NCBI GenBank assembly: GCA_001972305.1
Contig: BDDD01001632.1
Location: 155,739 to 219,738 of the forward strand
Source: Cephalotus follicularis
Lineage: Eukaryota; Streptophyta; Magnoliopsida; Oxalidales; Cephalotaceae
Length of the DNA stretch: 64,000 bases
Reading direction: 5' to 3'
The notes under the pieces are model-generated. The model was not told where the DNA came from and did no database searches. It saw nothing but the letters and a program-made list of their open reading frames with translations. Positions 8,219 to 59,803 of this stretch are shown here, piece by piece. The first letter of the stretch is position 1. Each line of letters opens with the position of its first letter. The position numbers and the translations under genes are program-made.

Positions 8219-9182
8219 CTATCGACTTCCATTGCATACAGGACGTACCTTTCTACTGCATTATGTTATGTATGCACATGGAGTGCAGTATAATCTACTG
8301 TCTGTCTTGTCTCTTCTAGCTTTAGGTTATGGTATTAGTTTCAGAATTCAAGTTTGGATATTAGTATGGATGGTGCTATTGTTGGACATGGCAGTTTATG
8401 TAATAGATTCTTTATAATGGATTTGGTTGATTCTGCTTCTTCATCTTTATTTGTGAATATAAATGATATTGATTCTATTACTTGGCATGCTAGATTGGGT
8501 CACATTGGGCAAGATATGATGACTCGATTAGCTAGAGAAGGTGTTTTAGCCCCACTCGCTAAGGTCAATCTTCTTATATGTGAGCCTTGTTTAGCTGGTA
8601 AGGCATGTAGAAAGCCTTTTGGAAAGGCTATTCGAGCCACTCAACCACTTGAGTTAGTCCACTCAGATATCTGCGGACCTATGAATGTGAATGCACGCCA
8701 TGGTGCTATTTATTTCCTTACTTTCATAGATGATTATTCGCGTTTTGGTCAAGTTTTTTTGTTAGCTCACTGTTATGAAGCCTTGGATTGCTTCAAACAC
8801 TTTATAGCAGAGAGTGAGAATCAGAAAGGAAGGAATTTAAAAATCCTTCGAACAGATCGTGGTCGCGAGTATTTATCAGCTCAGTTTAATGAACTTTGTG
8901 AGCAAAAGGGAATAAAAAGGTACCTTACTATTCCTTACACTCCACAACAAAATGGGATACTGAGAGAAGGAATAGAACTTGATTAGATATGGTTAGGTCG
9001 ATGATGGCACAAGCTAACCTTCCAATATCTTTTTGGGTGGATGTTTTATTGACTGCAGCCTACATCCTTAACAGAGTGCCATCACAGTCAATTTCCCCCA
9101 CTCCATATGAGTTTTGGAATAACCAAAAGCCTAATTTAAATCATTTACGCCCGTGGGGTGCAGTAGGCTATGTTCACAGTAC
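8219..9182 (+). pseudogene. Copia1 GAG-pre-integrase and integrase core
   Basis: The pre-integrase motif WHARLGHIGQDMM is near 8480, followed by the CEPCLAGKACRKPF zinc-type segment and the rve core. The first two catalytic aspartates are readable in HSDICGPM and RTDRGREY. The third residue lies at PQQNGI, where a frameshift at about 8957 moves the ERRNRT segment to another frame. Integrase continues as FWVDVLLTAAYILNRVPS and GAVGYVHST up to the Copia2 insertion site. Several stops and shifts separate the frames at 8232, 8354 and 8989. The protein resumes at 20201. Confidence 0.88.
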
Positions 9183-11346
9183 TGTTAGATATAGTGACCC
9201 GACAAGCCATTGGATGGACTGTCGTTTTATATCTATTCTTGTATAGAGCAATCTTATTCCTTATATATATATGATGTGTGCTAATTTGGTGTGGCTATAT
9301 CACTTCTATTTTATCACATAATTGAAGTAGTTTATTAATTACCTACTTATACTTATGATGCCCTGACATAAGGTTGGATGCCTGGAATGGAGGCTGTGAG
9401 ACTGGTTACCTTATTCCTTATGTCAAATTAGTTCCAAGTCATAGGTTCACTTTGTGGGCATTAGTGAACCGGATAGACTTACGCGTATGTTGCCTGCTCA
9501 TGGAATTGGAGGATGGATTCTCTCACTACCATCAGTGTTAGACACTAGGGCAAATACGAGGTGCGCGCTGGGAGCGTGCACACTGAACTGGACCCGCGTA
9601 GGAGACACTATTTGGATAGTCACTATTCTCGTGTCAGTAGTGACTCCTACTTGTTGCGGTTGTGTATAAGTGATCATCACTTAGCGAGTTCTTAAAGTCT
9701 GATCCTTAGACCTGAGCGACTACTCTATATTGTATGGAGACGGTTATGCTTTGATCTCCACCTTACCCAGTCCTTACGCAGGGCTGGAAATCGGTTGGTC
9801 TTTAGGTATGATCGAATCTATACGAATATAAGTGAGTGCGTAATATGGGATTGTCACACCTGAGCGAAGGTGATCGTCCCTATTATGGTCTGATTATACT
9901 TTGGACTTATGAAATCCTTGGCCAAGGTTGAGGTAGACTGGAAATTAGATTTCCAGAGAGTTTACCAAAGGTCCTAGTAATGATCAGATATTTTAGCCAT
10001 TGAGGTATTATCTAGGGTTGACACATATCCTTACCCTAGACCTCAATCGGGGCCAAGCATGACAAGGGATTATAGTACACGTGCACCGACGACTTAGAAA
10101 ATCTAGGGTTTATGAGGTGTATGGGAAAATTAATTAGATTAATTTTTCCATTTGGATAATATTTGGATATTATTACAATAGCATTTAAATTGGTCAAGGA
10201 CCATTTAGAATGGCTAAACCGGACCCAAGGGGTATTTCGATAATTTATGAACACCTCTTGTTTTGACCAAGATTTTAAAGGGTCCTTGCCTTATAATGAT
10301 GAGTTCTTTAATATGTTTGACATATTAAGTCTTTGTGTCAAATATCGGTTATGTGGATTTTGCATTTTATGGAAACACATATGTTTGATCTTACTTAACC
10401 AATATTCGAAGGGTACATGAGATCACTAAACGAGTTAGACTCTAATTGCTTCACTGGCCAGACAAAGCATCGATGTCTTTTAGAAAGACGTCGATGCTTA
10501 ACGATTTTAAAGACGTCGATGTCTTTTAGAAAGCGTTGATGTTTTTTAGTGGCACATTGCATGAGCGTCGATGTCCTTTGGAAGGCGTCGACGTCTTTGA
10601 GTAGAACGTGCAACCTGTGCACGAGCTCACTTCATGAGCACGTTTTCTCTCTCATCTCCAGCAGCCATCTCCCATTCTTGCATGTTATGGGAACGTGGGG
10701 ATCATGGCCACAGACTCCTAGGAGTGAGGACCATGATCCTAAGTGAATGGGAGAGTGGGAGAGAGAAGGAGGAGGCTAGTGATAAGCATTTTTTGCAGAA
10801 AAGAAAAAGTGGTGGTAGAGAGTTTTGTTGGGCAAGAGAAAGCTCGAATTTCTCTCTGCAGATTGTGTGTGTTCCCTTCATTGTTAAACATCAAGAAAGT
10901 GCTTATCTAGGGTGGATTGATTTTGACATCTTTGGTCAATATCAATTTACCTTTTCTAAGATTGGTGAGAGAGAGAGAGTTCATACACTTTGTTCTTAGT
11001 TCTTGCTGGTTGGAGTAGCTTCTGTACCAGGGATTTTGGAAGCAACGTGTTTGGTGTCTTCCCAAGCGTGTAGCGGCAGAGAAAGAAGGAGCCTTCACCC
11101 GCTGGTATATCTCTTGGTCCTTCTCTTCTTGCCATGCTTGTGTGTCACCATTGTTTGCTATGGTGACACCAATTCAATTCCGTTGATGATGTGGTGATCC
11201 ATGTGGCCTGTGGCCATGCCATTATGGACTGCATTTGTTTTATTGGGTGTTCTTCCGCTGCCATGTTTGTATGTTTTTGTTTTGTTCTACACCCTATATG
11301 CCTAAGTCCGTTTTTGGCACCGGATTGGGTTTAGCCGTTTCCATCA
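9183..11346 (+). repeat. 5' LTR of Copia2
   Basis: Starts TGTTAGATATAG and ends CCGTTTCCATCA, directly before the primer-binding site. It aligns along its length with 18032-20195 with scattered differences. It includes a palindrome array (10464-10600). Open frames inside (for example 10634-10999) recur identically in the assembly duplicate and slightly altered in the 3' LTR; they are LTR sequence, not genes. Confidence 0.93.
10464..10600. repeat. GTCGAC-type palindrome array 3 (Copia2 5' LTR)
   Basis: Six copies near 10466, 10485, 10511, 10533, 10564 and 10584. Two read GACGTCGATG followed by a T-rich tail. The duplicated copy lies at 12551-12687 and the 3' LTR counterpart at 19316-19450. 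This places the motif in a copia LTR. Confidence 0.85.
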
Positions 11347-11347
11347 G

Positions 11348-11359
11348 TGGTATCAGAGC
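11348..11359 (+). other. Primer-binding site of Copia2
   Basis: TGGTATCAGAGC follows the LTR end by one base and is complementary to the 3' end of plant initiator tRNA-Met, the usual primer for plant LTR elements. The duplicate at 13435-13446 is probably an assembly copy. Confidence 0.93.
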
Positions 11360-11639
11360 GTCCCACATCATCCTTGATTGAATTTATGCTTTAGATAATG
11401 AACTGATTAACCGTTTAATTGCTGGAGATGTTTTATGATCAAACTAGATTTTCAAAGTGCCTTAGTGAAAATTGCATGAAATTGGATTTCATTGTGTTTT
11501 TGTCCTGGGGATATTGTTTTAATGTTTTTAGATTATGTTTGGAACATGCATAGTGCAATTTGGATTGCCAGATTGGAATGCCAAAGTCTAAACCATTATT
11601 TTCTGCATTTTTCGAAATACAGAAACTGCCCAAGGGGTT

Positions 11640-11892
11640 ATAGACGTCGACGTTCTTAATAGACGTCGATGTCTTGTTCATCTTCTCGTGAAATGCGTCG
11701 ATGTTCTTGTTAAACGTAGATGCCTTGTTCATAAGTTCCCAGGAAACGCGTCGATGTTGTTGATAAACGTCGACGCCTTTTTCAATAGTTCTTGAGAAAT
11801 GCATTGATGCTCGTGTTATGCATCGACTCCTTTTTCAATTGTTTTTCCATGAAATGCATCGACACCTTTTTGGAAAGGCGTTGACGTCTTTA
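11640..11892. repeat. GTCGAC-type palindrome array 4 (Copia2 leader)
   Basis: About ten copies between the primer site and gag, near 11643, 11662, 11695, 11715, 11748, 11767, 11801, 11819, 11856 and 11878. They range from GACGTCGACGTTCTT to degraded forms such as GCATTGATGC. The duplicate is at 13727-13979. Unlike the other arrays this one lies outside the LTR. Confidence 0.8.
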
Positions 11893-14751
11893 TAAAAAAA
11901 AACTGTTTTTCAATAAAATTGGATTTTATACATTTTGGCACTTAGAAAATCAAAAATCATTGCNCCCTATTATGGTCTGATTATACTTTGGACTTATGAA
12001 ATCCTTGGCCAAGGTTGAGGTAGACTGGAAATTAGATTTCCAGAGAGTTTACCAAAGGTCCTAGTAATGATCAGATATTTTAGCCATTGAGGTATTATCT
12101 AGGGTTGACACATATCCTTACCCTAGACCTCAATCGGGGCCAAGCATGACAAGGGATTATAGTACACGTGCACCGACGACTTAGAAAATCTAGGGTTTAT
12201 GAGGTGTATGGGAAAATTAATTAGATTAATTTTTCCATTTGGATAATATTTGGATATTATTACAATAGCATTTAAATTGGTCAAGGACCATTTAGAATGG
12301 CTAAACCGGACCCAAGGGGTATTTCGATAATTTATGAACACCTCTTGTTTTGACCAAGATTTTAAAGGGTCCTTGCCTTATAATGATGAGTTCTTTAATA
12401 TGTTTGACATATTAAGTCTTTGTGTCAAATATCGGTTATGTGGATTTTGCATTTTATGGAAACACATATGTTTGATCTTACTTAACCAATATTCGAAGGG
12501 TACATGAGATCACTAAACGAGTTAGACTCTAATTGCTTCACTGGCCAGACAAAGCATCGATGTCTTTTAGAAAGACGTCGATGCTTAACGATTTTAAAGA
12601 CGTCGATGTCTTTTAGAAAGCGTTGATGTTTTTTAGTGGCACATTGCATGAGCGTCGATGTCCTTTGGAAGGCGTCGACGTCTTTGAGTAGAACGTGCAA
12701 CCTGTGCACGAGCTCACTTCATGAGCACGTTTTCTCTCTCATCTCCAGCAGCCATCTCCCATTCTTGCATGTTATGGGAACGTGGGGATCATGGCCACAG
12801 ACTCCTAGGAGTGAGGACCATGATCCTAAGTGAATGGGAGAGTGGGAGAGAGAAGGAGGAGGCTAGTGATAAGCATTTTTTGCAGAAAAGAAAAAGTGGT
12901 GGTAGAGAGTTTTGTTGGGCAAGAGAAAGCTCGAATTTCTCTCTGCAGATTGTGTGTGTTCCCTTCATTGTTAAACATCAAGAAAGTGCTTATCTAGGGT
13001 GGATTGATTTTGACATCTTTGGTCAATATCAATTTACCTTTTCTAAGATTGGTGAGAGAGAGAGAGTTCATACACTTTGTTCTTAGTTCTTGCTGGTTGG
13101 AGTAGCTTCTGTACCAGGGATTTTGGAAGCAACGTGTTTGGTGTCTTCCCAAGCGTGTAGCGGCAGAGAAAGAAGGAGCCTTCACCCGCTGGTATATCTC
13201 TTGGTCCTTCTCTTCTTGCCATGCTTGTGTGTCACCATTGTTTGCTATGGTGACACCAATTCAATTCCGTTGATGATGTGGTGATCCATGTGGCCTGTGG
13301 CCATGCCATTATGGACTGCATTTGTTTTATTGGGTGTTCTTCCGCTGCCATGTTTGTATGTTTTTGTTTTGTTCTACACCCTATATGCCTAAGTCCGTTT
13401 TTGGCACCGGATTGGGTTTAGCCGTTTCCATCAGTGGTATCAGAGCGTCCCACATCATCCTTGATTGAATTTATGCTTTAGATAATGAACTGATTAACCG
13501 TTTAATTGCTGGAGATGTTTTATGATCAAACTAGATTTTCAAAGTGCCTTAGTGAAAATTGCATGAAATTGGATTTCATTGTGTTTTTGTCCTGGGGATA
13601 TTGTTTTAATGTTTTTAGATTATGTTTGGAACATGCATAGTGCAATTTGGATTGCCAGATTGGAATGCCAAAGTCTAAACCATTATTTTCTGCATTTTTC
13701 GAAATACAGAAACTGCCCAAGGGGTTATAGACGTCGACGTTCTTAATAGACGTCGATGTCTTGTTCATCTTCTCGTGAAATGCGTCGATGTTCTTGTTAA
13801 ACGTAGATGCCTTGTTCATAAGTTCCCAGGAAACGCGTCGATGTTGTTGATAAACGTCGACGCCTTTTTCAATAGTTCTTGAGAAATGCATTGATGCTCG
13901 TGTTATGCATCGACTCCTTTTTCAATTGTTTTTCCATGAAATGCATCGACACCTTTTTGGAAAGGCGTTGACGTCTTTATAAAAAAAAACTGTTTTTCAA
14001 TAAAATTGGATTTTATACATTTTGGCACTTAGAAAATCAAAAATCATTGCCTGATTTAGTGAGAGTTTGATCAGTTAACAATCCTTAAATTAAATTGTAT
14101 GATTGGTTATTATTTATGGCATTTGTTTTATTTGTGTTTTATAATATTGGATATTATATAAGTCTTATGCACAATGGATGGCCCGAAAAAGGACATTGAC
14201 CTAGTTTATGGTTTTCTATGTGTGGATGGATGTTATTTATTTATTATTTTAAAGGTCTGTAATAAGGTGCCTGCGTGCACCATTTATTTTTCCTTACTTT
14301 TGTTATTTCTCCTTGTAATTTTTAAATGTAATTTCCTTTTCAAAATGTAAAGTACTTTTATGTAAATGAAGTTCTTACAAGGAGAGATGGAGGAAAGGAG
14401 AAATGGAGTACAAGACTTTTGAAGGCCATGTATGCATGGTAATTGTTGTAATAAATAGATTTATATCTTAACACCTAGGAAGACCTAGTAGTGATTTCGG
14501 GCTCAAGTCACTACTACTAATGTCCTTGCCAATCCATTGACATATTTTAGAAATATGTCCAAGGTGCATAAGATACACGTCTTGCATGCTAAGCCGTAAT
14601 TAATTGGAATTGGCTAATACAACCAATGAATTAATTAATGGCATGGTATTTAAAATTTGAGACCGCAAATTCCCTCACTTTAATAATAAGTCTTAACGTA
14701 GGAACCCATGGAGTGGTTCCCCGTGGCCTTCCACAATTTTCGTTCAGTAGT

Positions 14752-14804
14752 GTTCCTGGGTTGTTGGTTTGTCATGCCCTAGCTGAGGCTGATGACTTGG
14801 GGAT
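14752..14804 (+). ncRNA. Leader hairpin 1, shared 21-nt apical sequence
   Basis: The arms 14752-14767 and 14789-14804 can form 16 consecutive pairs if G-U is allowed (nine G-U, seven Watson-Crick). They enclose the 21-nt sequence at 14768-14788, which starts TTTGTCATGCCC and ends AGCTGAGG. The high G-U share means the stem exists only as RNA of this strand, not as a DNA palindrome. Function unknown. Confidence 0.65.
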
Positions 14805-14925
14805 TTTATGTCAACGTCGGTGTTGGGCACCGCAAAGGGTGGCTATGTTTTAGCACTTGGACAGCCTACGAGTGGTTGTTAAAACTAGTGCATTCCAATG
14901 AAAATTGTGGGTACTTGACTTATTA

Positions 14926-14971
14926 AGATTCTGATGGTTTGTCATGCCCTAGCTGAGGCCATATTGAATCT
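14926..14971 (+). ncRNA. Leader hairpin 2, shared 21-nt apical sequence
   Basis: The same 21-nt apical sequence lies at 14938-14958. The closing stem is ATGG/CCAT (14934-14937 with 14959-14962), then an internal loop of 3 and 4 nt, then AGATT/AATCT (14926-14930 with 14967-14971). The arm sequences are unrelated to those of hairpin 1. Confidence 0.6.
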
Positions 14972-15036
14972 AAGGTCGAATACTATGATTGGATCTTGTA
15001 TTGGATACAAATTGGCAAGAAAGTCTAACCATATGA

Positions 15037-15077
15037 TATATTATAGTTTGTCATGCCCCAGCTGAGGCTATAATATG
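15037..15077 (+). ncRNA. Leader hairpin 3, shared 21-nt apical sequence
   Basis: The apical sequence at 15047-15067 differs from the other two by one base (CCCC for CCCT). The arms TATATTATAG (15037-15046) and CTATAATATG (15068-15077) form ten consecutive pairs, the outermost being U-G. It ends about 185 nt before the gag start codon. Confidence 0.65.
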
Positions 15078-15262
15078 ATTGCGATGGATTCCAATCCCCA
15101 CTAGGAAGTTGGACTTCTCGAATTCCATATGGGGGTATGGGATACGATTAGAATAGTGGGAGGAACCATAAGCACTAAAGACCAAGTGTTATGGTTGTCA
15201 TATATTAAAATTGGAATAGATGCTGACTCAACTTTATATTTCCTTATCTAGGTTGCTATAAA

Positions 15263-16369
15263 ATGGCTTTACAATTTGCTAGGTCCCGCATTCTAGAGAC
15301 AAACAAATTGATAGGCCCAAACTTCATCGATTGGCAACGTAACCTCAAATTCATCATAACGACCAATAAATTGGTGTATGTGATAAAATGGGGGCCTCCA
15401 TCACTAGGTGATGATCCTACGCCTGATGAGTGCGACCGTCTGGCCATGTGGTTGGAGGATGATGAGCATGCTCGGTGTATCGCCCTTTTGGGGATGACAC
15501 CGGAGCTGCAACGCAAGTATGAGAAGATTGAGACCTTATCCGCTATACTACTTGATCTCGAGAAGATGTATGGGGCCGGGTCTAGGACTTAAAGGCTTAA
15601 TCTCCTACCCAAGCTCTTCAAGGCGCAGATGCCAGAGCGAGCTTCGGTCCATGATCATGGACTGGAGATGATAAACATGATTGAGCAGCTTACTCAATTA
15701 GGGTTTGTCATGGATCACAATCTGCAGATAGATCTTATTCTCACATCCCTCCCTGGATCGTTCTCACAGTTTGTGGAGTATTTTCACTTGATCGAAATAG
15801 AAGTAACTCTTTCTGAGTTAGTATCTATGTTGAGAACGGCAGAGGCCAATCTAGACTCTACGAAGTCAGAGATCCCAGCTCAGGAGGGGAAGCTTGGAGC
15901 TAGTGGGAGCGATGCCAAGAATCGAATGAAGCAGCTGGCGTCTGAGGGTGCTTCTTTCCAGTGCGGTAAGAATGGGCACTGGAAAAAGGATTGTTTAGTT
16001 ACTGGTACTGGAGTCTCTTCTGATGTTTTGCATGGTGCAAGTACATCAGGTATGTTCATGATTGAACTAAATCTAGCTTTGAATAGTAGTTCTTCATGGG
16101 TATTGGATACTGGATGTGGAACTAACCTTTGCAATTCGTTGCAGGGACTAAGAAAAGTTAGAAAGCTTAGAGCTGGAGACTTGGACTTACGGCTTAGGGA
16201 TGGATCTAGGATCATCGCTGAAGCTGTAGGGATGTGTGATGTTACTTTAAGTAATGGTTATGTATTGACACTTGATCCATGTTATTTCATTTCAAACATT
16301 GTAAGGAATATTATAAGTGTTTCATACTTATGTAATTTGGGCTTGGAGCTCAGATTCCAAGACATTTAA
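15263..16369 (+). pseudogene. Copia2 gag and protease
   Basis: One frame, broken by a stop at 15590-15592, gives a copia gag (MALQFARSRILETNKLIG onward). The central gag_pre-type region is followed by a zinc knuckle reading FQCGKNGHWKKDC, in which the first cysteine is lost. The protease active site is SWVLDTGCGTNLCNS with an intact DTG, and the frame stops at 16369. Start 15263 is chosen because the ATG begins the conserved gag N-terminus. Intact gag would coat element RNA and the protease would cut the polyprotein. The lost cysteine and the stop suggest this copy is inactive or relies on others. Confidence 0.88.
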
Positions 16370-16546
16370 TGTTTTGTTTATTCTGACAATATTTGTGTCG
16401 GTAATGGTTTTATCGACAATGGATTATTTGTCTTAAATACTGCACAATCCAAAGTCCTATCCATAGAGAAAAGTAATAAGAAAAGACAAAGAGAAACTGA
16501 GCTAAATAAAACCTATACCTAGCATTGTAGACTTGGTCATCTTAAG
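16370..16546 (+). pseudogene. Copia2 protease to pre-integrase linker, truncated
   Basis: After the stop the reading continues in a shifted frame with SDNICVGNGFIDNGLFVLN, then HCRLGHLKL near 16522. The latter is the start of the GAG-pre-integrase motif. It breaks off at the hairpin at 16547. The rest of integrase and all of RT are absent. Confidence 0.75.
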
Positions 16547-16583
16547 CTGCGTTTGGTAACGCGTTTTGCGTTACCAAACGCAG
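16547..16583. repeat. Perfect 16-bp inverted repeat at edge of foreign insert
   Basis: CTGCGTTTGGTAACGC is followed by GTTTT and then its exact reverse complement. Related AACGCGTTTGGCA and GAACGCGTT pieces follow within 150 bp. The arrangement resembles the terminal region of a small DNA transposon (a hAT-like or foldback MITE), but no matching right end was found near 17440. Confidence 0.7.
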
Positions 16584-16791
16584 TTATGGGAACACCGTTT
16601 CACAAAAAGTTGTATTTAACGCGTTTGGCAAAAAATTTAAAACTCAGTTCTTTAAAACGTCGTTCTCAAGATTAAGGCTTCAGAACGCGTTAAAATTAAA
16701 GCGTTTCGAAGCTCAACTGCATTCTCCTCACGCTTTGCCCATCTCTCCCTCAAGCTTCCTCTGCTCAACCATGACTCCCACCTTCTCTCGT
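16584..16791. other. Filler between hairpin and gene fragment
   Basis: AT-rich sequence with two further AACGCGTT pieces, possibly the inner part of a small DNA transposon. The 3'-most part (16765-16791) continues the minus-strand frame of the BRI1-like fragment for nine unrelated codons to a TGA. No gene was recognised. Confidence 0.45.
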
Positions 16792-17063
16792 CTCGATATT
16801 TTCAAGGGTGAAAAGAAATGAAGCAACGAAGTGAAACTCAATGCTCAAGGGAATGAAACTGAGGTCTATTGAAGAGACCCTGGTTTCTCTGCAAGCAACA
16901 CCAGTGAAGGCACATGGGTTTTGGTTAGGAAGCCAGTTTGGGAGGAGAGTTGTGTTAGGTAGTGAGGCTTTGAAGTTGATCAGTTGCTGTGTGTCGTTGA
17001 AAGAAGAAGAGGCTTGTAAAGTGAGAAAGGTTAGAGAGAGGAGGAGGTGAAGAGAGGTCTCAT
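16792..17063 (-). pseudogene. BRI1-like: BRI1-like receptor kinase N-terminal gene fragment
   Basis: The minus strand encodes the start of a brassinosteroid receptor (BRI1-type LRR receptor kinase). A hydrophobic signal-peptide-like stretch (LSLTFLTLQASSS) is followed by the N-terminal LRR cap with FNDTQQLINFKASLP, WLPNQNPCAFTGVACRETR and the first repeat VSSIDLS. Similarity runs to about residue 90 and stops at 16792. A plausible ATG is at 17061-17063, but one base is missing or extra between it and the conserved frame. The whole kinase and nearly all LRRs are absent. In plants BRI1 sits in the plasma membrane and binds brassinolide. Here it is a captured fragment, antisense to the element. 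The family call rests on recognition by eye; a close BRI1 paralogue (BRL) is possible. Confidence 0.85.
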
Positions 17064-17443
17064 TTTTGCAGCTGTTGTGAGAGAAAAAGTGGGTTGATTT
17101 TATTGTCTGAGGTCAGCCATTAGATAGAGAGGAGATAGCTTTGAGCTCTGGTTTTAGAGAGAGAGAGCGTGTGTGTGGTATTAAGGGAGTTAAAAGATGG
17201 AGTAGAGAAGGTAAGAAGAAAGTAAGAAGAAAGTAAGAAGGGTATTTATCAACTGGGGGAGGGGGACACAGCTATTGCTCACATGCCGTGTGACTGTCAC
17301 TCTTTCTCCTTAAAAAAAAATTCTCTGTTTTTTTTTTGTCTCTAAAACCAGTTTGTCTCTTTTGAGGCTTGATGCTTCCTAGCTCTATAAAATCACTAAT
17401 TCATAAAGAGATAAATTACTAATTTATGATGCTTTTATTTTCA
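17064..17443 (-). other. Probable captured BRI1-like 5' flank
   Basis: Read on the minus strand, the 270 bp upstream of the fragment's ATG are CT-rich with repeated TTCTTACTTTC and a CTCTCT run, as in many plant 5' UTRs, so they were probably captured with the gene. The stretch 17330-17443 is AT-rich and ends TTTTATTTTCAG exactly at the RNase H junction, which resembles a splice acceptor on the plus strand. That last point may be coincidence. Confidence 0.5.
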
Positions 17444-18031
17444 GTCTGATCCCGGTGAGAAGCACTGGGAAGTGGTCAAGGGAATCCTGAAGTACCTTAG
17501 GAGGACTCAGGATATGTTCTTGATATACGGAAAGGATAGTGATCTGAAATTGGAGGGCTTCACAGACTCCAGTTTTGATAGTGATCCGGATGATAACAAA
17601 TCTGTCTCTGGGTACGTTTTTGTACTTAATGGTGGAGCTGTGAGTTGGCGCAGTTCTAAGTGAGGGACTATTGCATATTCTACCACAGAAGCAGAGTACA
17701 TAGCAGCCTCAGATGCCACCAAGGAGGGTGTATGGATGCGCAAGTTCATTACCGAACTAGGAGCTGTTCCTTCCATAATTAGTCCAGTTGTAATATACTG
17801 TGATAATAATGGGGCTGTAGCACAAGCCAAGGAACCGCGGTCTCACCAGCGATCCAAACACATCGAGCAGCGCTATCATTTAATCCGAGAGATTATTGGT
17901 AGGGGAGATATACATCTTGAGAGGGTCTCCTCAGAGGAGAACACATCAGATCCGCTGACCAAGGCAATGGGCACCAAGGCTCTGGAGCATCATCGTGGGA
18001 CGATGGGTCTAGGCTATAGGAGTTCATGGCT
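17444..18031 (+). pseudogene. Copia2 RNase H
   Basis: The reading resumes with HWEVVKGILKYLRRTQDM, then FTDSSFDSDPDDNKSVSGYVF, then a stop at 17661-17663, then TTEAEYIAASDATKEGVWM, YCDNNGAVAQAKEPRSHQRS and KHIEQRYHLIREII. These are the copia RNase H motifs with acidic catalytic residues present. SSEENTSDPLTKAM marks the end of the polyprotein. The stop and the missing RT make it non-functional. The downstream frame runs into the 3' LTR. Confidence 0.9.
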
Positions 18032-20195
18032 TGAGGGTCATAGTGACCCGACAAGCCATTGGATGGACTGTCGTTTTATATCTATTCTTGTATAGAACAA
18101 TCTTATTCCTTATATATATGATGCGTGCTAATTTGTTGTGGCTATATCACTTGTATTTTATCACATAATTGAAGTAGTTTATTAATTACCTACTTTTACT
18201 TGTGATGCCCTGACATAAGGTTAGATGCCTGGCATGGAGGCTGTGAGACTGGTTACCTTATTCCTTATGTCAAATTAGTTCCAAGTCATAGGTTCACTTT
18301 GTGGGCATTAGTGCATCGGATAGACTTGCGCGTATGTTGCCTGCTTATGGAATTGGAGGATGGATTCTCTCACTACCATCTGTGTTGGACACTAGGGCAA
18401 ATATGGGGTGCGCACTGGGAGCGTGTACACTGAACTGGACCCACATAGGAGACACTATTTGGATAGTCGCTATTCTCTTCTCACTAGTGACTCATACTTG
18501 TTGCGGTTGTGTATAAGTGATCATCACTTAGCGAGTTCTTAAACTCGTCTGATCCTTAGACCTGAGCGACTACTCTATATTGTATGGAGATGGTTATGCT
18601 TTGATCTCCACCTTACCCAGTCCTTACGCAGGGCTGGCAATTGGGTGGTCTTTGGGTATGATCGAATCTATACAAATATAAGTGAGTGCGCAATATGGGA
18701 TTGTCACACCTGAGCGAAGGTGATCGGCCCTATTATGGTCTGAGTATACTTTGGACTTGAAATCCTTGGCCAAGGTTGAGGTAGACTGGAAATTAAATTT
18801 CCGGAGAGTTTACCAAAGGTCCTAGTAATGATCAGATATTTTAGCCATTGAGGTATTATCTAGGGTTGACACATATCCTTACCCTAGACCTCAATCGGGG
18901 CCAAGCATGACAAGGGATTATAGTACACGTGAACCGACGACTTAGAAAATCTAGGGTTTATGAGGTGCATGGGAAAATTAATTAGATTAATTTTTCCATT
19001 TGGATAATATTTGGATATTATTCCAATAGCATTTAAATTGGTCAAGGACCATTTAGAATGGCTAAACCGGACCCAAGGGGTATTTCGATAATTTATGAAC
19101 ACCTCTTGTTTTGACCAAGATTTTAAAGGGTCCATGCCTTATAATGATTAGTTCTTTAATATGTTGGACATATTAAGTCTTGGTGTCAAATATCGGTTAT
19201 GTGGATTTTGCATTTTGTGGAAACACATATGTTTGATCTTACTTAACCAATATTCAAAGGTTATATGATATCACTAAAAGAGTTAGACTCTAATTGCTTC
19301 ACTGGCTAGACAAAGCGTCGATGTCTTTTAGAAAGACGTCGATGCTTAACGTTTTTAAAGACGTCGATGTCTTTTAGAAAGCGTCAATGTTTTTTAGTGC
19401 CACATTGCATGAGCATCGATGTCCTTTGGAAGGCGTCGATGTCTTTGAGCAGAACGTGCAACCTGTGCACAAGCTCACTTCGTGGGCACGTTTTCTCTCT
19501 CATCTCCAGCAGCCATCTCTCATTCTTGCATGTTATGGAAATGTGGGGATCATGGTCACAGACTCCCTAGGATTAAGGACCATGACCCTAAGTGAATGGG
19601 AGAGTGGGAGAGAGAAGGAGGAGGCTAGTGATAAGCATTTTCTGCAGAAAATAAAAAGTGGTGGTAGAGAGTTTTACTGGGCAAGAGAAAGCTCGAATTT
19701 CTCTCTTCAGATTGTGTGTGTTCCCTTCATTGTTAAACATCAAGCAAGTGCTTATCTATGGTGGATTGATTTTGACATCTTTGGTCAATATCAATTTACC
19801 TTTTCTAAGCTTGGTGAGAGAGAGAGAGTTCATACACTTTGTTCTTAGTTCTGGCTGGTTGGAGTAGCTTCTATACCAGGGATTTTGGAAGAAACGTGTT
19901 TGGTGTCTTCCCAAGCGTGTAGCGGCAGAGAAAGAAGGAGCATTCACCCGCTGGTATATCTGTTGGTCCTTCTCTTCTTGCCATGCTTGTGTGTCACCAT
20001 TGTTTGCTATGGTGACACCAATTCAATTCTGTTGATGATGTTGTGATCCATGTGGCCTGTGGCCATGCCATTATGGACTGTATTTGTTTTATTGGGTGTT
20101 CTTCCGCTGCCATATTTGTATGTTTTTGTTTTGTTCTACACCCTATATGCCTAAGTCCGTTTTTGGCACCGGATTCGGTTTATCCGTTTCCATCA
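18032..20195 (+). repeat. 3' LTR of Copia2
   Basis: Same length as the 5' LTR and collinear with it, ending CCGTTTCCATCA before the TSD. The first dozen bases read TGAGGGTCATAG where the 5' LTR has TGTTAGATATAG; from there on homology is close. No clear polypurine tract precedes it. Confidence 0.9.
19316..19450. repeat. GTCGAC-type palindrome array 5 (Copia2 3' LTR)
   Basis: Six copies collinear with array 3, near 19317, 19336, 19362, 19381, 19413 and 19433. Some copies differ between the LTRs: GCGTCGATG here against GCATCGATG at 10466, and GCGTCAATG against GCGTTGATG. These are transitions at the CpG positions. Confidence 0.8.
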
Positions 20196-20200
20196 AGTAC

Positions 20201-21526
20201 TTCTCATAGATTTCGAAAGTTAGGACCTAGGGCTAGAAAGCATATCTTTATTAGATATTCTGATAGCTCAAAAGGTTATGTGATGTATGGTGAACATTCA
20301 GATGGAGGAGGTATAACAGAGGTCGAATCATGTGATGTTACTTTCCTTGAAAATGAATATCCAACTTTGGGTGAGACTTTTACGAATCTAGACCTCTTTG
20401 AGATAGAGGACAGTGGGAGCATCCTACCATCATTAGGCGCGGGTGGGGAAAATATTTCTTATTCGACAATCGCTAATGATAATAGGAGTGATCCCCAATC
20501 CAGTAGGAGTATACCAGATAATAAGAGTGTATCACCACAGGATGTTCAGGATTCTCAAGTGCGTAAAAGCAAACGTGGGAACATTCCTCACCGTAGTTTT
20601 GAGATTGAGGGGAATAAAATTCTCATGTGTGCTATATCCAGTGAGGATGAGCCTGCTTCTATCAGGGAAGCACTTTCTTCACAAGCTAGTTATGAGTGGA
20701 ATGTAGCTCTGCAAGAAGAGCTTGATTTTATGGCCAAGAACAATGTTTGGGAGTTAGTTGATCTACCGCCAGGGCGTAAGGCCAATGGAAATAAATGGGT
20801 CTTAAAGATCAAACACCAAGAAGATGGATCAATTGACAAGTATAAGGCATGCCTAGTGGCGAAGGTTATACCCAAATTCAGGGTATAGACTATGAAGATA
20901 CATTCTCCCCAATGGTGAGAATTGCTTCTCCTCGCTTGATCCTTGCTATTGTGGCACAGCAGGATTTAGAACTTTACCAGATGGATGTTAAGACAACTTT
21001 TCACAATGGGGAGCTAGATGAAGAGATCTATATGACTCAACTAGAAGGTTTTGAGGTCAAAAGACAAGAGCGCAAAGTTTGCCGCCTTAAATGCTCTATT
21101 TATGGTCTCAAACAATCATCTAGACAGTGGAATTTGAAGTTCCATAATTTCATTACTTCTATTGGTTTTGAAATGATGAAGGAAGACCACTGCGTTTATA
21201 TATCTCATGATGTGGTCACTGAGGATCATTCCATATATATAAATAAATCAAAAGGGAAAGTTCTTATCCTTGCTTTGTATGTAGAGGACATTCTCTTAGT
21301 TGGGAATGACATGGATTTAATTATAGCCATGCAGAAATGGTTGTCCTCTACTTTTGAGATGAAAGACATGGGGAAAGCGAGCTATGTGCTCGGAGTTACG
21401 ATTAGAAGAGATCAGAGACTTCTAGGTGTCTCTCAAGAAACTTACATAAAAAAAAGATCATTGAACGATTTCGCATGCATAACTCTAAACTTGTTGATAC
21501 CCCAATGGAAAAAGGATCTACTTTAA
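20201..21526 (+). pseudogene. Copia1 integrase C-terminus and reverse transcriptase
   Basis: The protein picks up after the Copia2 insertion with SHRFRKLGPRARKHIFIRY, a variable linker, then RT: KANGNKWVLKIKH, a frameshift near 20865, then YEDTFSPMVRIASPR, MDVKTTFHNGELDEEIYM and CSIYGLKQSSRQWN. The catalytic box reads LYVEDILLVG, where copia RTs have YVDD, so one catalytic aspartate is replaced. Reverse transcriptase would copy element RNA to DNA; this copy is almost certainly dead. The frame ends at 21526. Confidence 0.92.
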
Positions 21527-22246
21527 TCTTGGATTAATGTCCTAAGAATAATGAAGAAAACCATCGAATGTCCAAAGTATCATATGCGGCTACTGTAGGG
21601 AGTCTAATGTATGCTATGATGTGTACACGACTTGACATTTGCTATGCAGTTGGCATGGTTAGTCGTTATCAGAGTAATCCATGAGAAGCTCATTGGATAG
21701 TTATTAAGAGAATACTTCGATACCTTCGTGGTACAGTTGACCTTATCTTATGTTATCATGAAGGTGACTTAAGACTGCGAGGTTACAGTGATGCTAATTG
21801 GGCTAGTGATAGATGGGAGAAAGTCCACTTCAGGGTATGCATTCATACTTGGTGGTGGTGCTATCTCTTGGAGAAGTAAAAAGCAAACTTGCATTTCCCT
21901 TTCTACAATGGAAGCAGAATATGTGGCTTGTTCTGCAGCGATTCAGGAAGCTGTATGGCTGAGGAGATTTTTTATGCGGTTAGATGTCATGGCCCATTCT
22001 AAGGGGCTTGTTCTTATGTACTGTGATAGTACAGCTGCATTGGCATATGTTAGGGATCCCAAGTACCATGGAAAGACCAAACATATTGATGTTCGTTATC
22101 ACTTCATTCGAGACATGGTAGCACGTGGTGAGGTGATCATGCATCATATCTCTACTGACATGATGGTGGTTGATCCCTTGACTAAGCCTATTGCTAGAGA
22201 TGTGTTTCTTTCTCATGCTAGAAGCATGGGGTTATGTAGGATTTAA
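21527..22246 (+). pseudogene. Copia1 RT thumb and RNase H
   Basis: 21527-21787 is the RT-RNase H connection with stops and shifts (YAVGMVSRYQSNP-like reading in one frame, then YSDANWASD). From 21788 an open frame gives [57 protein letters not shown] and [14 protein letters not shown], ending with DPLTKPI and a stop at 22246. These are the standard copia RNase H motifs. The minus-strand frame here is a shadow. Confidence 0.92.
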
Positions 22247-58439: not shown

Positions 58440-59803
58440 ATGCCACCTAAGACACGTAGCGGAGGTCGTGCAGATCGCGGCAGAGGTTGTGGCAGAGGCA
58501 GAGGAAGAGCGATTCCTTGCCAGACAGTGGAGCAAGAGGTTCCTATGGAAGCGCTAGAGGAACAAGAGCATGTGGAAGTTGAAGAGCAGGGAGTGCAGCA
58601 GGTACCGGAGGAGCCTATTCCAGCAGCGCAGTCAGCCTCGCGTATGCCTCCTCCAGCACCTACCAGTGGACCTACAGAGATGATGCAGGTGATGACGAGC
58701 TGGGCTCAAACTATGGGTTTGGTCAGACCTCAACCTCTTCCTGTGGAATGCATGCAACAGCTGGGAGAAACATCCTTCGAGGGAACAGGAGACCCCATGG
58801 ATGCAGATGCGTGGTTGAGCCGCCTAGAAGAGATCTTCGTTCAGTTGGAGATAGCAAAGGACACGAGGGCAAGAAATGCCTCTTTCTTTCTTGCAAGAGG
58901 TGCACGAAGATAGTGGGATGCTCTGGTAGCTCAGCACGAGAGCTTTGTAGAGATCACGTGGGAGAAGTTCAAGAAGGAGTTTAGATAGTACTTCTTCCCA
59001 CCCACTTTCATCAAAGAGAAGAGAAAGGAGTTTTTGTATCTGCGGCAAGGTAATGGGACTGTATCTCAGTATGAGTATCGTTTTATGGACTTGTCTCATT
59101 TTGCTCCAGCCCTGGTAGCAGATCAAGAGGAGCGATGTCAGAAGTTTCTTGAGGGCCTTAAACCCAAGATCAGACATATGGTGTCCGTCACCCCGTGGTT
59201 GGTGTTTGGAGACTTGGTGGAAGCTTCCAAGAGAGTGGAGTCGAGCCTGGCAGACCAGAGGATGTGTCAAGAGCAAGGACAGAAGAGATCCTCATCTCAG
59301 TTCGAGCAAGCAGAGAACCCCTCCAAGGCTCAGAAGCAGTGGGGACCTCAGACAACGCCAGAGGAGGAGCTTCTCAGCAGACACAGACGGCTCCAGTTGC
59401 TAGCAATGTTCAAGGGAGTTCTTATCAAGGCAACAAGGCCCCTCAGTGTGAAGTTTGTGGAAAGCTGTATTCAGGAGAATGGAAGAAGGGAAGCACTGCA
59501 TGTTACAGGTGCGGCAAGGAAGGGCACATGAAGAGAGATTGCCCTCAGCAATCTCTTGGTGAAGCGATGACGCCTGTGGCAGCACCTGTGAGGAAGCAGA
59601 CCACGGCCAGTGGTATGACCCAATCATCTCATCCATCAGGAGAGCAGAGAACGAGATATACATCACCCCACACCAGTACAGCCAAAGTTGGTGGTAGCAG
59701 ACCAGGGGCTACAGCAAGAGTTTACTCTCTTCACACAGGGACAGATATGACAGCGCCAGATATGCCACTAGGTGAGATCTTACGTCATGTGTTTCTTCTT
59801 TAG
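58440..59803 (+). pseudogene. Gag of the TR-GAG element
   Basis: Starts MPPKTRSGGRADRGRG, then a proline/glutamate-rich region, then the gag core FEGTGDPMDADAWLSRLEEI and YLRQGNGTVSQYEYRFMDLS. Stops at 58911-58913 and about 58984 and a frameshift near 59355 break it. The C-terminus has a complete zinc knuckle CYRCGKEGHMKRDC near 59496, preceded by a degraded CEVCGKLYSG. The frame ends with ARVYSLHTG and a stop at 59803, roughly where gag would join protease in a full element. Gag would let the RNA be packaged with proteins from a related autonomous gypsy element. Confidence 0.9.

Follow-up and report, generated by a model that had tools for sequence, protein, structure and literature searches.

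A repeated RNA hairpin, strongly supported as a selected structure, in the leader of a Ty1/copia-type retrotransposon of Cephalotus follicularis

The element and its leader

A stretch of 64,000 nucleotides of Cephalotus follicularis DNA (contig BDDD01001632.1, positions 155,739 to 219,738; hereafter the window) carries a Ty1/copia-type long terminal repeat (LTR) retrotransposon of a very common, plant type, whose leader holds three hairpins, H1, H2 and H3, built around one repeated motif and placed between the primer site and gag (Table 1). LTR retrotransposons can form most of large plant genomes. The first 12 bases of the motif, TTTGTCATGCCC, match the host genome 6,979 times, and the reversed pattern does so 89 times; at three per full copy, this suggests some two thousand or more copies of the element. 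In a self-comparison of the window the LTRs, at about 9191-11346 and 18040-20195, are 95.6% identical. The primer binding site-like TGGTATCAGAGC at 13435-13446 presumably matches the initiator tRNA-Met; a copia-type gag domain is present in 15629-16366 (Pfam: Retrotran_gag_2, E 3e-7, and Pol_BBD, E 7.3e-9), and pol is largely gone from the window copy, between 16366 and 18040.

Copies were compared within this one genome (1.58 Gb). Four of 107 loci were duplicates and were skipped, and 66 of the remaining 103, together with the window, yielded 67 leader rows, 58 belonging to family A (the window included) and nine to a distant family B. A row was accepted if it had three motif-like matches (at most seven substitutions each) at the right spacing or, for family B, through H3. 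Because rows were chosen by the motif, they overstate how well it is conserved, H1 most of all; the stems are free of this choice, with the exception of the 3' arm of H1, which was used in selecting one set of 30 loci. In one copy (L074, 1490-1530) an LTR end is seemingly joined straight to the H1 motif, the intervening leader being absent, and in another (L069, minus strand, 1490-1516) GTTTGTCATGCCC is duplicated head to tail within H2.

Table 1. Features of the leader and of the start of gag in the window
Feature	Position	Strand	Remarks
Primer binding site-like TGGTATCAGAGC	13435..13446	+	3' of the 5' LTR; from sequence
Conserved block	14420..14440	+	two middling candidate 5' splice sites (14430, 14439)
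Structured leader domain enclosing H1-H3	about 14722..15205	+	predicted, about 480 nucleotides; RNAalifold, 11 family A and 8 family B rows
Hairpin H1	14752..14804	+	16-pair outer stem around apical hairpin; helix reaches ~14742-14815 in alignments
Apical hairpin of H1	14772..14786	+	UCA/UGA, bulged U, GC/GC, CCUA loop
Hairpin H2	14926..14971	+	6 + 4 outer pairs flanking an internal loop; same apical hairpin
Apical hairpin of H2	14942..14956	+	C-G/U-A swaps among copies at 14943/14955
Hairpin H3	15037..15077	+	10-pair outer stem; same apical hairpin; CCCA loop in the window
Apical hairpin of H3	15051..15065	+	C-G/U-A variation among copies at 15052/15064
3' splice-site-like sequence	15223..15251	+	branch-like CTGAC, pyrimidine-rich tract, TAG; 11 nucleotides 5' of the gag ATG
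Start of gag, to in-frame stop	15263..15589	+	piece without a Pfam match; Retrotran_gag_2 only in the following piece, 15629-16366

Three hairpins with one apical fold

A sequence-only reading of the window had reported three near-identical copies of a 21-nucleotide sequence differing by one base, and all three are found, at 14768-14789, 14938-14959 and 15047-15068 (the closing C counted), the sole difference being a T to C change in the third; with up to three mismatches allowed, the motif matches the window three times and 100 shuffles not once. A base-by-base check of the outer stems gives 16 consecutive pairs for H1 (nine of them G-U) and 10 for H3, as reported, and four inner plus six outer pairs for H2, which had been counted as four plus five. 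Chance frequencies, taken over 63,800 positions of the window with the closing pair excluded, are 1.6e-5 for 15 or more contiguous pairs (H1-like) and 5.8e-4 for nine or more pairs (H3-like); the H2-like case, nine or more pairs with one internal loop, has a frequency of 0.017 and is weak alone. Folding energies for H1, H2 and H3 are -20.4, -14.2 and -11.8 kcal/mol on the plus strand, against -9.6, -9.8 and -9.3 kcal/mol on the minus strand. Relative to shuffles, only H1 clearly stands out (z -2.69; H2 -1.84, H3 -0.94), and the leader at 14650-15270 has an energy z of -3.41 (20 shuffles). Since single-sequence energies are only partly unusual, it is the comparison of copies that makes the evidence for structure.

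The 21-mer, earlier taken for a fixed open loop, is in fact a small paired hairpin with compensatory changes of its own. The fold common to H1-H3 in RNAfold runs through two U-G pairs and a bulge of two bases to UCA/UGA, then through a bulged U and GC/GC to the four-base loop CCUA, which in the window H3 is CCCA. Rfam gave no window match at or above the gathering score, 13400-15300 giving nine sub-threshold matches up to E 10 (best E 0.46), and the 21-mer has no exact match among IMG/VR viral contigs. A descriptor scan of the window returned H1-H3 and two others, at 59538 (plus strand) and 58708 (minus strand), with five and two outer pairs. A coding origin of 14720-15262 was rejected, the longest stop-free runs in the three sense frames being 43, 47 and 48 codons.

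Pairing is kept while the stems change

The comparison of copies strongly supports the view that the three hairpins are a selected RNA structure: stems differ between related copies and pairing is kept, which points to selection on the RNA fold. In minimum-energy folds of 11 copies, judged by eye, the outer stem is present in 27 of 33 segments (H1, 11/11; H2, 8/11; H3, 8/11). Leaders keeping the 21-mer between flanks that do not pair had been named beforehand as a refutation; in the copies examined the outcome favours structure, the parts free of row selection (the 5' arm of H1, H2 and H3) being 87-99% paired in register and 2-75% paired when slid. This figure comes from 20 usable rows out of the 30 loci for whose choice nothing but the H1 motif and the 3' arm of H1 had been used. 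A pooled alignment of 30 hairpins, not structure-aware, was excluded from the pair counts.

Changes were placed on a midpoint-rooted FastTree tree of 56 family A rows, with pair states assigned by parsimony and with the nine family B rows, L069 and L074 dropped. On internal branches there are 41 pair changes, of which 21 keep pairing (four of them two-sided), 13 restore it, five break it and two do neither, some of the 13 restorations hinging on the root state of the midpoint-rooted tree. The 189 pair changes on terminal branches, 85 keeping, 100 breaking, three restoring and one doing neither, are mostly the decay of dead copies after insertion. Keeping and breaking are distributed differently over internal and terminal branches (p 0.0013). 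In a slid control, with the 3' partner moved one to three bases, internal branches gave 6-13 keeps among 31-49 changes and no two-sided ones. Three of the four two-sided keeps fall on a single pair, being C-G/U-A swaps at 14943/14955 inside the 21-mer, and the fourth is at 15045/15069.

Changes per site on internal branches number 0.52 in the outer stems and 0.17 in the 23-mer (H1 0.04, H2 0.26, H3 0.22), against 0.29 in the rest of the leader and 0.95 in the first 62 bases of gag; the H1 value is biased by the way in which rows were found. Together with the pairing, these rates indicate stems that change fast yet stay paired, and a motif that is conserved but not specially so. An H3 pattern left open at two pairs, with all four combinations admitted, gives 1,075 matches, against two in the reversed control. 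Among the first 100 of these, by eye, 15045/15069 is A-U in 61, G-C in 34, G-U in two and A-C in three, and the apical pair is C-G in 88, U-A in seven, C-A in five and U-G in none, a tally that is illustrative, the copies sharing descent and Fisher values not being independent evidence.

These data also bear on the idea that the motif is a repeat acting at the DNA level (a host factor site, for example) or a functionless one with chance pairing. Such a repeat would account for a 21-mer nearly identical three times in the window, but we regard it as hardly credible, and the comparison of copies already contradicts it, given the compensatory changes among copies, stems that pair in register only, the nine G-U pairs in the sense strand of H1 and the better folding of that strand. 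The earlier proposal of a selected structure in the sense RNA is supported.

A second family of leaders

Family B was obtained with a pattern avoiding the family A stem, whose 29 matches comprise the nine family B copies, five of family A (L060, L069, L070, L074 and L075) and 15 with the 13-mer and no hairpin. Compared with the window, family B gag DNA is ~65-70% identical where alignable, and the region around H3 ~76-83%. Hairpins stand at the same three places in eight of nine rows, on stems different from those of family A; the ninth, L062, keeps only H3, and its sequence upstream of H3 is not homologous. The apical loops have five bases: in H2 of L053, TTATGGTT/AACCATAA enclose UCA-A-GC-CCUCC-GC-UGA, and H2 of L057 reads CACAGC-CCAAC-GCUGUG. 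The GTCANGCCCNNCGCTGA form has 392 matches in the genome and none in the reversed control. Most family B rows show a C-A mismatch in the stem of H3, which was rejected as biology; it is an artefact, because the search pattern excluded T there, and L020, which was not picked by the pattern, pairs fully at this position.

A covariance model (R1) built from 15 family A hairpins was run on the window, on ten family B loci (the nine and L020) and on L055. At E up to 0.05 it recovered the three window hairpins, H3 of family B in 10/10 loci (L062 partially) and H2 in 4/10 (L020, L053, L059 and L077). Nine of the ten H3 loci had been picked by the first half of H3, and the free finds are thus H3 of L020 and the four H2. 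A further window match lies at 587-627 (E 0.12), and L055 gave no match with this model. The H1 hairpins of the two families are alike by place and fold only.

That the 21-mer folds as a hairpin argues against loop-loop contacts through the palindromes CATG and AGCT, which had been thought possible. Kissing loops are the way in which Ty1 RNA dimerisation begins (PMC5454406), but dimerisation of the present RNA through CAUG and AGCU is very unlikely: the palindrome bases are mostly paired, neither form of the exposed loop (CCUA, CCNNC) is self-complementary, and the exposed, conserved and self-complementary loop of a kissing-loop dimer site was not found. Moreover, family B H1 lacks CAUG, and CGCU replaces AGCU in many family B hairpins.

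A larger domain and a probable intron

RNAalifold predicts helices beyond H1-H3, several with two-sided change, in counts uncorrected for relatedness. Two helices at H1 shared by both families vary on both sides in 9/11 pairs, and a further helix at H3 (15029-15034/15082-15087) does so in 3/6. The hairpins thus belong to a structured RNA domain of about 480 nucleotides. The stretch 15080-15200 is the part of the leader best conserved between the two families, exceeding the start of gag, and has helices of its own. A fourth long hairpin, in which the motif is absent, is predicted in both families between H1 and H2, at 14842-14889.

The conserved acceptor-like sequence just 5' of gag suggests that the hairpins are probably intronic. 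In aligned rows, despite indels, TAG|GT is kept in 15/18 (the rows without it being L040, L010 and L062) and YTRAY in 17/18, with a pyrimidine-rich tract between; L055, whose gag is ~67% identical to that of the window, also shows an acceptor-like sequence. The scores of the candidate donors rest on generic splice-site frequencies. The leader contains 60 AUGs, so many that gag is unlikely to be translated from unspliced RNA.

The same 60 AUGs favour control of gag translation, by ribosome shunting or by minimal upstream frames AUG-CCC-UAG within the hairpins, as does the presence of AUG-CCC-UAG in 49/58 (H1), 45/58 (H2) and 39/58 (H3) family A rows. We nevertheless find such control improbable. 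Family B has AUG-CCC-UAG in 0/9, 0/9 and 1/9 rows (H1, H2 and H3) and no AUGCC in H1, and the minimal upstream frame was rejected as a conserved feature for that family; in the window AUG-CCC-UAG occurs only in H1 and H2, H3 having no stop, and the question falls away if the leader is spliced out.

The main rival to a packaging role is control of nuclear export or splicing, in which the domain would bind host proteins and export unspliced RNA or set the spliced fraction. The structured domain adjoins the conserved acceptor-like sequence, and the RTE and MTE elements are described for mouse IAP and MusD (PMC12786077). According to the same paper, these are structured RNAs in LTR elements that act on full-length RNA, as the domain would here; MTE has pseudoknot and kissing loop motifs, its sequence having been compared with the present hairpins through the Rfam scans only. 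Export or splicing control seems to us rather unlikely, though nothing counts directly against it; a small hairpin repeated three times suits repeated contact with a protein, but this leaves unsaid whose protein it is.

Packaging as a possible role

We tentatively propose that the hairpins, probably lying within a leader intron, could well be repeated packaging signals bound by Gag. The selected leader domain would present one recognition hairpin three times, the recognition unit being a short apical hairpin, with GC/GC closing a loop that begins CC, on stems constrained mainly to pair. The Gag protein of the element itself would find several sites to bind here, and its binding may select full-length genomic RNA for virus-like particles; splicing would strip the hairpins and the upstream AUGs from translated RNA, and packaged RNA would retain them. 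A coat-protein tag would be expected to look like this, a recognition hairpin repeated on free stems between the primer site and gag, and, as in retroelement packaging signals, the selected structure is part of the genomic RNA close to its 5' end. More doubtful is the extension to a packaging code of plant LTR retrotransposons, in which one coat-binding hairpin, built in family A like the MS2 operator but unrelated to it, and present three times in a leader intron, would tag only unspliced genomic RNA and leave spliced RNA for translation, the loops of the two families (CCUA in A, CCNNC in B) possibly giving a family-specific choice.

Several observations weigh against a packaging hairpin in a leader intron. 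On the donor side there are only the two middling candidates. A genome pattern search for copies made from spliced RNA gave three matches, against two in the reversed control, none of them clearly spliced; of the two that were inspected, one is an ordinary unspliced copy and the other has no clear relation to the leader. The bulge is absent from H1 of family B and from the H2 hairpins of L052, L057, L071 and L072, and the outer stem is absent from the minimum-energy fold, by eye, in 6/33 segments. Each family taken alone shows good helices at H2; the alignment of A with B shows none there, since the two sets of stems cannot be aligned. Model R1 found family B H1 in 0/10 loci and missed H2 in 6/10. 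Finally, the motif had been described as invariant, and on internal branches its H2 and H3 sites (0.26 and 0.22) are scarcely slower than the surrounding leader (0.29).

The MS2 operator combines a bulged base with two pairs and a loop of four bases. This geometry is matched by the family A fold, whereas family B has five-base loops and the parallel, a formal one, is weakened because part of that family lacks the bulge. RNA phages have a coat protein hairpin of the MS2 type, with packaging signals dispersed along their RNA (PMC4751978); as in the element, a small stem-loop occurs at several places, the phage one being bound by the particle protein, as is proposed for those described here. No shared ancestry is suggested, since the loop sequence differs and host and element are unrelated. 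In Ty1, a structured RNA domain near the 5' end is tied to packaging (PMC5454406; PMC4974528), as is proposed here; that domain has a pseudoknot and kissing loops, whereas our element carries a single hairpin in three copies in the untranslated leader that precedes gag. The packaging-relevant sequences of Ty1 and Ty3 of yeast are reportedly not precisely defined (PMC4974528). For BARE, a copia element of barley, PMC3735527 describes spliced, translated RNA for Gag that is kept apart from packaged RNA, and mentions dimerisation and packaging signals in BARE2; a plant copia element can thus separate the two pools. In our element it is removal of a long leader that is proposed, and the likeness to BARE is drawn from its description.

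Leader RNA signals of retroelements are already known, and the triplicated hairpin family is new as far as we have seen; no description of this hairpin was found in the open-licence PMC literature, which is a weak negative. Because the RNA structure is concrete, repeated and backed by evolutionary evidence, Gag binding, splicing and export become directly testable. Moreover, the contrast between internal branches, which represent still-copying lineages, and terminal branches, which represent decaying copies, offers a simple search for functioning RNA structures in any element of high copy number.

Surroundings of the element

The element seems to be nested in a second copia element (nested region 8354-22246), because integrase domains upstream (8354-8986) and a reverse transcriptase domain downstream (20849-21526) flank it on either side. 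The segments 9878-11963 and 11965-14050, separated by one base, have the same sequence throughout their 2,086 bases; as the LTRs differ by more than 4%, this points to a very recent duplication or an assembly artefact. Between the primer site and the hairpins, at 13720-13990, there are diverged 53-base direct repeats with GACGTCGATG-like words. A perfect-looking inverted repeat, CTGCGTTTGGTAACGC, lies in the broken coding region at 16546-16584 and resembles the end of a small DNA transposon.
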